From Candidatus Eisenbergiella merdavium (GTDB lineage Bacteria > Bacillota > Clostridia > Lachnospirales > Lachnospiraceae), in contig DWWS01000074.1 of the NCBI GenBank assembly GCA_019119595.1, positions 1 to 64,000 of the forward strand: a stretch of 64,000 nucleotides of DNA. Reading direction: 5' to 3'. Of the stretch, positions 11,641 to 49,345 are shown in pieces. Under the pieces are notes generated by a model. That model was given only the letters and a program-made list of their open reading frames with translations, ran no database searches and had not been told where the DNA came from. Each line of letters begins with the position of its first letter. Position 1 is the first letter of the stretch. The position numbers were made by a program, and so were the translations under genes.

Positions 11641-11741
11641 CCCCTCTCTTCATTCCAGCCATTAATTTTGTATGGCACCCCGTCTCCTGATATGCTATAA
11701 TACCTATATTCTTTATATGTTGCCCGATACAGAAACAGGAG

Positions 11742-13889
11742 ATGAAAAACATGACAGCAAGACAGCAGATTAAGACCTATCCTGGTGTACCTTATCCAAT
11801 GGGCGTATCCGTAACCCGCGACGGAAGGCTGAACTTCGCGGCAGCTCTCCGTACGAAGGAGGAGTGCGGTGTGCTTCTGTACCTGAAGGACCGGGGAGCG
11901 CCTGTGCGCCTTCCCTTCCATATGGGGAAAAAAGTGGGCAATATATATTGCCTGCAGGTGGACGGCCTGACAGGCAGCGATTTCAAATATAATTTTTACG
12001 CGGGGGACGAGGTGATTACGGATCCTTACGCAGCGGTGATCTACGGAAATGAGAAGTGGGGGCGGCGCGTGAGCCCTGCTCTGAAGGGCGGGATCTGTGC
12101 GGAAGGCTTTGACTGGGGCGAGGACCGGCCGCCCATGACGCCTCTTTCCGACAGCATCCTGTATCTTCTGCATGTGAGAGGGTTTACGAGACATATAAGC
12201 TCCGGTGTGGAGCATAAGGGAACCTATGCGGGTATCATGGAGAAGATCCCCTATCTGAAGGAGCTGGGAATCACGGCGGTGGAGCTGATGCCCTCCTGTG
12301 AATTCCTTGAGCTGGAGCGTGAAAAGCGGCAGGAGCCTACCATGGAGGAGGCAAAGAAGCGATACATGGAGGACCCTGAAGCGGAAGAAACGCCCAGGAT
12401 CAATTACTGGGGCTATAAGGAGGGCTACTATTTTGCGCCCAAATTTTCCTATGCGGCCTCGGATCATCCGGCGGAGGAATTTAAGAGCCTGGTGAAGGCG
12501 CTTCACGCGGCGGGGATTGAGCTGATCATGCAGTTTTATTTTCCGCCCTCCGTCAAGCAGACGTATATCCTGGAGGTGATCCGTCACTGGGTTCTGGAGT
12601 ATCATGTGGACGGCTTTCATCTGCTTGGGATGAAGGTGCCGGTGGTGCTTCTCGCAACGGAGCCCATGCTTGGCAACACCAAGCTTTTCTGCGAGGAGAT
12701 GCCCTGCGGCGACATCTATGAAAACGGCGAAACGCCCGTTTATAAAAATCTTGCATCATATAACGACAGCTTCCTGTATCCCATGCGCGGCTTTTTAAAG
12801 GGTGATGAGAACATGCTTCCCTCCGTGCTGTCCTGCCTGAAGAGAAACCCCTCGCAGGCCGGCGTCATAAATTATATTACCAACTACTCCGGCTTCAGCC
12901 TGGCCGATCTGGTTTCCTATGACGGAAAGCACAACGAGGAAAACGGCGAGGACAACCGGGACGGCAGCGACAGCAATTTCAGCTGGAACTGCGGCGCGGA
13001 AGGGAAAACACGGAAAAAGGCGGTTCTGAGGCTTCGCAGAAGGCAGATGAAGAACGCCATGCTTCTGCTTTTGACGGCGCAGGGAACGCCGATGATCGTC
13101 AGCGGAGATGAATTTGGCTTCAGCCACAGGGGGAACAACAATCCCTACTGTCAGGACAACGCGGTGAACTGGCTGGACTGGAGGCTCGCGGAGGAAAACG
13201 GGGATTTTCTTGCTTTTGTAAAAAGCGCGGTAGCCATAAGAAAGGCCCATCCCATTCTGCATTGTCCGGAGGAGCTGACCATGCTGGATTATCTGTCCTG
13301 CGGCTTCCCGGATCTGTCCTATCACGGCGAAGAGGCGTGGAAGCTGAGAACGGACCGCCAAAGCAGGATCGCGGGACTGATGTACTGCGGCAGCTACGCG
13401 AAGCGAAACCGCCAGGAGGACGACGAATCCTTCTATATTGCCTACAATATGCACTGGGAGGAGCATGATTTCGCCCTTCCCGCACTGCCGGAGGGACGAA
13501 CCTGGATGAGGATTCTGGATACCTTTGAGGAGGAGACGGCTGAGAAGGAGACGGAAAAGGACGCAGCCGTAAGGGCGGCGGAAAATACGTCTGACGGATT
13601 GGGAACGGGGCCGAAGGATCAGGGAGAGAGCGAAACGGCTGAAGCATACGGGGGGGAAGGAAAGCATACCAGAGTGCCCGGCCGTTCTATCCGTATCCTG
13701 GTCAGCCGCGGGCAGGCCCTGCCGCAGAAGCAGGCCGGGCCGTCCGGAAGCCGATCCCGGAAGGCGGATGTGAAGGAAGATGCAAAAAGACCCGGCAGAG
13801 GAAAGGCCAGAGCCTCCCGGCCCTTAGCCGGACCGGAAAAAGACAGGCCGGACGAGATTCAGAAGGCAGGACCGAAGGACAGTGAATAA
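11742..13889 (+). CDS. GlgX/isoamylase-like GH13 protein, probably catalytically inactive
   Basis: Retains GlgX scaffold (VDGFHLL; LVSYDGKHNEENGEDNRDGSDSNFSWNCG; NNPYCQDNAVNWLDW) but lacks the catalytic Asp positions; charged C-terminal tail. Confidence 0.75.
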   Translation: MKNMTARQQIKTYPGVPYPMGVSVTRDGRLNFAAALRTKEECGVLLYLKDRGAPVRLPFHMGKKVGNIYCLQVDGLTGSDFKYNFYAGDEVITDPYAAVIYGNEKWGRRVSPALKGGICAEGFDWGEDRPPMTPLSDSILYLLHVRGFTRHISSGVEHKGTYAGIMEKIPYLKELGITAVELMPSCEFLELEREKRQEPTMEEAKKRYMEDPEAEETPRINYWGYKEGYYFAPKFSYAASDHPAEEFKSLVKALHAAGIELIMQFYFPPSVKQTYILEVIRHWVLEYHVDGFHLLGMKVPVVLLATEPMLGNTKLFCEEMPCGDIYENGETPVYKNLASYNDSFLYPMRGFLKGDENMLPSVLSCLKRNPSQAGVINYITNYSGFSLADLVSYDGKHNEENGEDNRDGSDSNFSWNCGAEGKTRKKAVLRLRRRQMKNAMLLLLTAQGTPMIVSGDEFGFSHRGNNNPYCQDNAVNWLDWRLAEENGDFLAFVKSAVAIRKAHPILHCPEELTMLDYLSCGFPDLSYHGEEAWKLRTDRQSRIAGLMYCGSYAKRNRQEDDESFYIAYNMHWEEHDFALPALPEGRTWMRILDTFEEETAEKETEKDAAVRAAENTSDGLGTGPKDQGESETAEAYGGEGKHTRVPGRSIRILVSRGQALPQKQAGPSGSRSRKADVKEDAKRPGRGKARASRPLAGPEKDRPDEIQKAGPKDSE

Positions 13890-14466
13890 TGAAAAGAAGG
13901 GCGGCGCCCGTATGCTGGCGGGCGCCTGGAAGCATTTCAGGACAATTACGTATCATAAATATCTGGTGATGAAGGGCTGCTTTGCCGTGGGACTTTACCG
14001 GCAGGGATTGACCCATGACCTGTCAAAATACAGTCCGACGGAATTTCTGGTGGGCGCGAGATATTTTCAGGGAAACAGAAGCCCCAATAACGCGGAGCGG
14101 GAGGAAAAGGGATATTCCGCCGCCTGGCTGCATCATAAGGGAAGGAACAGGCATCATTACGAATATTGGATCGATTACAGCACGGAGAATGTGCCGGGAG
14201 GCATGGCTCCGGTGGAAATGCCGGCAAGATATGTGGCGGAGATGCTGATGGACCGGATCGCCGCGTCCAAGGTCTATCTGGGCGAACGGTATACGGACGC
14301 GGCTCCGCTGGAGTATTTTCTGGGCTCCAAAGAAGCTCCTGTCGTGCATGAAAAAACCAGAGCGCTTCTTCTCAAGCTTCTAACCATGCTGGCACAGGAG
14401 GGTGAGGAGAAGACCTTTCAATATGTAAGGACAGTCCTTTTGAGAAAAAAGCATCGGACGCGGTAG
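13882..14466 (+). CDS. DUF5662 family protein
   Basis: GLTHDLSKYSPTEFLVGARYFQGNRSPNNAEREEKGYSAAWLHHKGRNRHHYEYW; overlaps upstream gene, GTG start. Confidence 0.8.
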   Translation: MNNEKKGGARMLAGAWKHFRTITYHKYLVMKGCFAVGLYRQGLTHDLSKYSPTEFLVGARYFQGNRSPNNAEREEKGYSAAWLHHKGRNRHHYEYWIDYSTENVPGGMAPVEMPARYVAEMLMDRIAASKVYLGERYTDAAPLEYFLGSKEAPVVHEKTRALLLKLLTMLAQEGEEKTFQYVRTVLLRKKHRTR

Positions 14467-45463: not shown

Positions 45464-46834
45464 ATGGCGGAGGTAAGACCTTTTCGGGCCTGGAGGCCCG
45501 CGCAGGGGCTGGCGGAGAGGATCGCGGCCCTTCCCTACGACGTTGTGAGCGGGAAGGAGGCCAGGGAGGAGATTCGGCGGGAGCCCTGCTCCTTTCTCGC
45601 GGTAGACAGGCCGGAAACCCAGTTTGAGGAGGGAACGGATGCTGCCGCGCAGTACGTGTACGAACGGGCGGGAACGCTTTTGCGGCAGTGGATGAAGGAG
45701 GGCAGTCTTTTGCATGAGACGGAGCCCTGTTATTATATCTATGAGCTGGAAAGGCAGGGATACGTGCAGACGGGGATCGCCGCCTGCGTATCGGCGGACG
45801 ATTATTTATGTGGCGTGATCCGCAGACATGAGAACACGAGAAAGGATAAGGAAGAGGACAGAACCCGGCACGTGAGGGCCTGCGGCGCGCAGACCGGGCC
45901 GGTCTTTCTCGCCTACCGGGCTAAGGAGGAGATCCGGGCCATCACAGAGCGCTGCAGGAAGGAAGCCAGCCTGTACGATTTCGTTTCTCCCGACGGCATC
46001 GGCCACAGAGTATGGAGGATTGGAGCGCGGGAGGACGTGCAGGCGCTTCACGAGGCCTTCGCCGGGGTGGAAAGGCTGTACATAGCGGACGGACATCACC
46101 GCTGCGCGTCGGCGGTGCGGGTGGCTCTGGAGCGCAGGAAGGAATGTCCGGACTATACGGGAGAGGAACCGTTCAATTTCATTCTGTCCGTGCTGTTTCC
46201 GGACGATGAGCTGACCATCCTGGAGTATAACCGGGTAATCCGGGATCTGAACGGATTGACCCCGCAGGAGTTTCTGGAGAAGGTCGGGGCGCATTTTGAG
46301 GTCAGCCCCGAGGAAGGAGCGTACCGTCCGGAGGGGAAGGGCCGCTTCGGCCTCTATCTGGAGAAAAAATGGTACCGGCTGACATGGAAGCGGGAGACGG
46401 AGACAGAGGCGGCTGTGTCCACGGCCCAGACTCCTGTGTACTCGGCTGAGGCTCCATCAGCTCCGGCCCAAGTCCCGGCGGATTCGGCCCCGGCACCTGC
46501 AGCCTCGGTTCAAGCCCCGGCACCTGCAGCCCCGTCGGATCCGGTTCAGGCGCTGGACGCGGACGTTCTGCAGCGGCTGATCCTGGAGCCGGTTCTGGGA
46601 ATAAAGGACCCGAGGACGGATGAAAGGATCGATTTTGTGGGCGGCGTCCGGGGACTGGAGGAGCTGGAAAAACGCTGCGGGGAGGACTGCGCGGCGGCCT
46701 TCAGCCTGTACCCCACGTCGATCGGGGAGCTGTTTAAAGTGGCGGACGCGGGGCTTCTGATGCCGCCCAAGTCCACCTGGTTCGAGCCGAAGCTGCGAAG
46801 CGGGCTGTTCATCCACAGCCTGAAAGAGGAATAA
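45464..46834 (+). CDS. DUF1015 family protein with Pro/Ala-rich insertion
   Basis: AEVRPFRAWRP...AALPYDVVS; YIADGHHRCASAVR; LDADVLQRLILEPVLGIKDPRTDERIDFVGG. Confidence 0.88.
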   Translation: MAEVRPFRAWRPAQGLAERIAALPYDVVSGKEAREEIRREPCSFLAVDRPETQFEEGTDAAAQYVYERAGTLLRQWMKEGSLLHETEPCYYIYELERQGYVQTGIAACVSADDYLCGVIRRHENTRKDKEEDRTRHVRACGAQTGPVFLAYRAKEEIRAITERCRKEASLYDFVSPDGIGHRVWRIGAREDVQALHEAFAGVERLYIADGHHRCASAVRVALERRKECPDYTGEEPFNFILSVLFPDDELTILEYNRVIRDLNGLTPQEFLEKVGAHFEVSPEEGAYRPEGKGRFGLYLEKKWYRLTWKRETETEAAVSTAQTPVYSAEAPSAPAQVPADSAPAPAASVQAPAPAAPSDPVQALDADVLQRLILEPVLGIKDPRTDERIDFVGGVRGLEELEKRCGEDCAAAFSLYPTSIGELFKVADAGLLMPPKSTWFEPKLRSGLFIHSLKEE

Positions 46835-46849
46835 AGAGGGAAGGAATTG

Positions 46850-49345
<2,496 letters not shown>

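Follow-up and report, generated by a model that had tools for sequence, protein, structure and literature searches.

A family-wide, vertically inherited paralogue of GlgX/isoamylase in Lachnospiraceae has lost its catalytic residues and been retained. Its representative in Candidatus Eisenbergiella merdavium, encoded in the window (the whole 64,000-nucleotide stretch of DNA analyzed here), had been taken in the first-pass annotation for a single odd protein, probably a pseudoenzyme. The isolation does not stand, and the pseudoenzyme status is strongly supported by clade-wide loss of the catalytic residues, by a modelled complete barrel in which the catalytic positions are replaced, and by strong purifying selection. 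The carriage and preservation of the gene in most members of the family suggest an undescribed, non-cutting role in glycogen handling.

The putative pseudo-isoamylase (pseudo-GlgX) gene is an uninterrupted 715-amino-acid open reading frame (11742-13889; window coordinates are on the + strand unless stated otherwise). An AGGAG at 11737-11741 is better spaced for the ATG at 11751 (Met-4) than for that at 11742, and the former may be the true start. Pfam recognizes part of an alpha-amylase barrel and a C-terminal isoamylase domain, and the NCBIfam GlgX model TIGR02100 matches at 1.1e-93 with 314.6 bits, under half of its cut-off of 640.9. The closest solved relatives by sequence are chloroplast ISA1 (phmmer to ISA1, 2e-75), Chlamydomonas ISA1, TreX and GlgX, which bears out the GlgX/isoamylase likeness first proposed by eye.

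An AlphaFold2 model based on 46 clade sequences (pLDDT 84.1, pTM 0.85) contains all of the barrel strands, beta-1 to beta-8, as well as N-terminal and C-terminal beta domains, with beta-4 at residues 291-295 and beta-7 at 374-377. Foldseek ranks rice ISA1 (9j60) first (E 5.5e-56, target-length TM 0.79), ahead of Chlamydomonas ISA1, S. venezuelae GlgX, TreX and ISA2. As modelled, the fold is a complete isoamylase/GlgX (GH13_11) type barrel, and the model, Foldseek and phmmer together give the GH13_11 combination of N-terminal beta-sandwich, (beta/alpha)8 barrel and C-terminal beta domain. The sandwich occupies the CBM48-type position (residues ~11-125, 11772..12116; AlphaFold2 strands at 11-117 with pLDDT ~87-96), and Pfam CBM_48 is recognized in only 2 of 46 clade members. 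The protein ends in a charged, mostly disordered and unconserved tail (residues ~599-715, 13536..13886; pLDDT mostly <50), for which the model has two late strands (642-657).

The catalytic motifs are largely gone. Region I, read previously as QFYFPPS (residues 264-270) followed by a deletion, is QFYFPPSV at residues 264-271 (12531..12554); the Asp, Asn and His of DVVxNH are lost, and about 44 residues have been excised here, after beta-3, so that 8 residues separate region I from the helix before beta-4 in the alignment versus 52 in intact GlgX. Region II is VDGFHLLGM (residues 289-297, 12606..12632) where VDGFRFDLA is expected, with Arg replaced by His and the nucleophile Asp by Leu295. Region IV is NYITNYSGF (residues 377-385, 12870..12896), in which YITNYSGF stands where a sequence like FVTAHDGF is expected and His-Asp has become Tyr-Ser. 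These motifs had all been read correctly, as had the absence of catalytic Asp residues and of the region-I Asn and His alongside retained scaffold motifs (LVSYDGKHNEENGEDNRDG..SWNCG and GNNNPYCQDNAVNWLDW). To that reading we add region III, TKLFCEEM (residues 313-320, 12678..12701), in which the acid/base Glu318 of KLFCEE survives and the Trp and Asp that follow are lost. Judged from motifs and strand positions, the catalytic-triad positions of active GH13_11 enzymes would be occupied by L295, E318 and S383.

Matches to the protein in 145 related genomes are of two kinds, either collinear over the full length or broken at residue 268/271 by the extra loop of intact GlgX. In collinear-type proteins, region I is separated from the helix preceding beta-4 by 7-8 residues and the catalytic motifs are lost; in broken-type proteins this spacing is 51-54 residues, and the DVVxNH, GFRFD, ExWD and HDG motifs are intact. 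A scan of species representatives yielded 47 pseudo and 32 intact forms, one additional intact-type protein with region IV unaligned, and no intermediates. Pseudo forms in that scan were confined to Lachnospiraceae-type Bacillota, in genera including Acetatifactor, Butyrivibrio, Roseburia, Dorea, Oribacterium and Velocimicrobium.

A family alignment at the catalytic positions, suggested as a check in the first-pass annotation, finds the full triad in none of 118 pseudo-clade members, with at most three of the seven catalytic residues in any one sequence. The region-I excision is present in 118/118, and all seven residues are present in 67/67 intact GlgX proteins, so the motif losses are not due to chance. 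The nucleophile Asp is aligned in 1 of the 118, the region-I Asn and His are retained in 2 and 1 respectively, and the region-III Glu is kept in only ~20%. The sole Asp at the nucleophile position occurs in L063 of genome G017 (region II GFVLD), and the rest of its triad is missing.

In trees made without plant sequences, the pseudo proteins make up one side of a single branch (SH-aLRT 100), unmixed with other proteins; by this phylogeny the clade has a single origin. An AU test of its derivation from Lachnospiraceae GlgX, as opposed to an earlier origin, gave p 0.498. The collinear form was found only in Lachnospiraceae, the family of the source organism, in a class-wide sample of 392 genomes. 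Within the family, 250 genomes of 90% or higher completeness were sampled at roughly one per genus, and the gene was called in 194 of them at a threshold of 1e-82 that misses a few, such as G069. The matches to the protein in phage collections come from short fecal contigs that carry no annotation and are probably of bacterial origin.

Conservation was lost unevenly. Intact enzymes have 157 columns with conservation of 90% or higher; the pseudo clade maintains 71 of these at a level of at least 80%, and the losses cluster in the excised loop and on the catalytic face. Mean conservation from intact to pseudo proteins falls from 0.93 to 0.51 in block 261-270, from 0.96 to 0.51 in block 291-300 and from 0.88 to 0.21 in block 321-330. 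Blocks in 391-480, at 0.53-0.81 versus 0.59-0.86 in intact enzymes, are near the intact-enzyme level. They lie in a retained border-lobe/outer-subsite segment (residues 349-480, 12786..13181) that keeps R349, N398, E403, W415, N465, N467, Y469, W477 and W480.

Two studied enzymes give meaning to these positions. Missense mutants of maize ISA1 (su1) at R504, N561, W578 and N628, which define the border lobe, have no detectable catalytic activity; W578 contacts glucan at SBS2, and the maize genetics showed that the border lobe has a noncatalytic role in glucan organization (PMC12510319). By residue spacing, these four residues correspond to R349, N398, W415 and N465, kept in 99, 100, 85 and 100% of the pseudo clade, and this mapping indicates that border-lobe/SBS2 residues are retained. 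In S. venezuelae GlgX, acarbose is contacted by W222, Y224, H271, D342, E378, W380, H449 (with D450), E470, N534 and Y536 (PMC9530166). W222, Y224, E470, N534 and Y536 equate by motif spacing to W223, Y225, E403, N467 and Y469 of the window protein, kept in 100, 87, 97, 100 and 94% of the clade, whereas the catalytic-wall contacts H271, D342, E378, W380, H449 and D450 are missing from most members or from all of them. The outer glucan-contact residues may instead have been retained for structural reasons.

Constraint has also been gained. In residues 511-560 (13272..13421), D516, D524, A532, Y548 and Y552 are constrained only in the pseudo clade. D516 is present in 97% of members and unconserved in intact enzymes, and the top-residue frequency of block 511-520 is 0.45 versus 0.17 in intact enzymes. 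Placed just after the barrel, these five residues are a candidate partner surface.

The distribution of the gene links it to the branching enzyme gene glgB. Nearly all of the relatives have both glgA and glgB; for glgA this makes a co-occurrence test with the pseudo gene uninformative. The few family genomes among them without glgB also lacked the pseudo gene, which prompted a test of glgB. Across the 250 family genomes, with kinship handled solely by sampling about one genome per genus, the pseudo gene is present in 193 of 238 with glgB and in 1 of 12 without (Fisher p 3e-7), the single exception being G615. In the 186 genomes outside the set from which the idea was formed, the counts are 143/177 and 1/9 (p 3e-5). 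The control gene DUF5662, found in 202/238 and 7/12 of the same genomes (p 0.03), shows only a weak effect, so part of the glgB effect is left unaccounted for by general gene loss. Presence of the pseudo gene depends on glgB, not on intact GlgX.

The branching enzyme gene of the window, glgB (46850-49345), is intact, as previously noted, with TIGR01515/PRK05402 scores well above cut-off. It encodes a long form with a Lys/Glu-rich C-terminal tail of ~95 residues, and a second, shorter GlgB is encoded elsewhere in the source genome (G000:C45:216941-218797). Several relatives (G001, G003, G006-G009, G012, G015, G023 and G034) also have a GlgB over cut-off encoded in the same orientation as the pseudo gene and ~23-41 kb downstream of it. 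The 538-aa antisense frame opposite the window glgB (46457-48073, - strand) is a typical coding shadow of a G+C-rich gene.

Retained glucan-contact residues, unchanged border-lobe constraint and glgB dependence give indirect support to the earlier suggestion of a glycogen-binding regulatory or scaffold protein. We favor, with moderate confidence, a noncatalytic glycogen-binding pseudoenzyme that acts as a scaffold or organizer, comparable in bacteria to plant ISA2 but not reliant on a partner of the ISA1 type. Inherited vertically across Lachnospiraceae as a noncatalytic isoamylase/GlgX paralogue, the protein would bind branched alpha-glucan (glycogen) through its border lobe and outer subsites, with no cleavage. 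It may occupy branch regions and/or dock GlgB, GlgP or pullulanase/GDE, and docking could proceed through the clade-specific C-terminal segment around D516-Y552. The outcome would be control over glycogen build-up or take-down, resembling the noncatalytic action of plant ISA1/ISA2 complexes, which affect starch formation without catalysis (PMC12510319). By analogy, the plant ISA system makes a noncatalytic organizing or docking role possible.

The gene neighborhood raises another explanation, that the protein was repurposed away from glucans and its barrel now serves as a scaffold for protein interaction or a small ligand, perhaps with the product of an adjacent DUF5662 gene (13882..14466; PF18907, Pfam 5.5e-37) that shares 8 nt with the 3' end of the pseudo gene. 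In 56 of 111 pseudo loci, a same-strand DUF5662 gene is one of the first three genes downstream, and a search around these 111 loci found no conserved glycogen-gene neighbors. Recurrent neighbors are DUF5662, TraX-like (named by eye), uvrD-like, gltX and DUF1292-like genes, and the setting is ordinary vertical synteny. A solved homologue of the DUF5662 protein was sought and none was found. Although the constraint gained in residues 511-560 would also fit repurposing, we consider it rather improbable: the outer glucan-contact residues are at intact-enzyme conservation, the pseudo gene tracks glgB far more strongly than DUF5662 does, and DUF5662, carried by 209 of the 250 family genomes, is found in genomes that have no pseudo gene.

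An obligate, ISA2-like subunit that works only as the noncatalytic hetero-oligomer partner of intact GlgX would have a precedent in plants, where ISA2 acts in this way with ISA1. Intact GlgX and the pseudo gene occur together in 31 of 90 family genomes, a weak association (odds ratio 3.4, p 0.09). However, intact GlgX is missing from 34 of 57 high-quality carriers, including the source genome, in which a search found none over cut-off, so the pseudo protein cannot generally be an obligate GlgX partner. The model also has no ISA2-type extra N-terminal domain. As a general mechanism the GlgX-partner subunit is contradicted by these carriers, and we hold it to be improbable.

The same survey bears on whether the protein could act as a debranching enzyme or transferase whose catalytic apparatus has moved elsewhere, standing in for a missing debranching enzyme. 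Of the 57 high-quality carriers, 23 have neither GlgX nor a type I pullulanase over cut-off (the type I subfamily was searched), these have glgA and glgB, and those covered by the GH133 search mostly have no strong GDE match. Genomes including G017, G019, G020, G024, G031, G034, G038, G039, G041, G055 and G056 carry glgA and glgB together with the pseudo gene but lack GlgX, type I pullulanase and a strong GDE match. Such genomes, and the survival of E318 in the window protein, are what relocated catalysis has in its favor. It is nevertheless very unlikely, given that the catalytic positions vary freely, that the barrel has no conserved acidic residue peculiar to the clade, and that the newly conserved acids D516 and D524 lie after the barrel. 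Moreover, the source genome has other debranching enzymes, namely a type I pullulanase over cut-off (C32:5914-7656) and, near it, a GDE-type (PF06202) protein (C32:8761-10056). Together (G000:C32:5914-10056, locus L009) they are probably the active debranching module of the organism. Opposite the pullulanase, an 836-aa antisense frame (L009 1036-3546, - strand) is again a typical G+C-rich coding shadow.

A decaying gene or assembly artefact, for which motif loss is the one thing that speaks, is refuted and has practically no likelihood: reading frames are open in nearly all of ~70 and of ~190 loci in two surveys, and dN/dS in close pseudo pairs is about 0.1 (0.07-0.20, against 0.05-0.11 in most close intact-paralogue pairs), showing that the gene is not decaying.

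A literature search, whose coverage ended short of subscription journals, found no description of a bacterial isoamylase pseudoenzyme or of a noncatalytic debranching enzyme in Lachnospiraceae. To our knowledge, noncatalytic isoamylase function is so far known solely from plant starch synthesis. There, noncatalytic isoamylases are subunits, and how to disentangle their catalytic and noncatalytic functions is actively being studied. A bacterial lineage in which catalysis is lost, selection is strong and an active partner is often absent offers a simpler system for noncatalytic isoamylase function. We tentatively raise the possibility, though we think it on balance doubtful, that a partner-independent, noncatalytic isoamylase shapes branched alpha-glucan in these bacteria, independently of plants, through particle architecture, solubility or the access of degrading enzymes. 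If so, it would be the main branch-recognizing protein in genomes with no recognized intracellular debranching enzyme. Annotation is affected as well: pseudo-clade frames match GlgX models, so that in genome surveys the Lachnospiraceae, one of the major families of the gut, can be assigned a debranching enzyme that is in fact absent.

Among known systems, the closest likeness is to ISA2 of plants and green algae, a lineage-wide conserved paralogue of single ancient origin, which has the isoamylase fold but with substitutions at the nucleophile and at most of the conserved GH13 catalytic positions (PMC12510319). The pseudo clade likewise combines lineage-wide catalytic loss with purifying selection. 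Unlike ISA2, it is bacterial, has the whole region-I loop excised, is often present without an active isoamylase, and keeps the border-lobe/SBS2 residues that are reportedly lost in ISA2, in which SBS1 is the glucan site that is kept. Furthermore, ISA2 has an extra N-terminal beta-sandwich before CBM48 (PMC12510319), whereas the pseudo protein begins at the CBM48-position sandwich, with strands from residue 11. The noncatalytic isoamylase of Lachnospiraceae probably evolved independently of the plant one. With GlgX, TreX and bacterial isoamylases (TIGR02100, GH13_11), the pseudo proteins share domain order, barrel, outer subsites and border lobe, and they differ in the missing triad, the missing region-I Asn and His, the short loop and the low model score. 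The c-di-GMP-activated GlgX of S. venezuelae, whose c-di-GMP-binding residues are reportedly strictly conserved among Streptomyces (PMC9530166), has the same fold and is a high-scoring structural match, but is an active enzyme. Plant BAM4 and BAM9 are also catalytically dead relatives of glucan hydrolases, retained as regulators of glucan turnover (PMC12892837), although they belong to another enzyme family, are eukaryotic, and have partners that are partly known.
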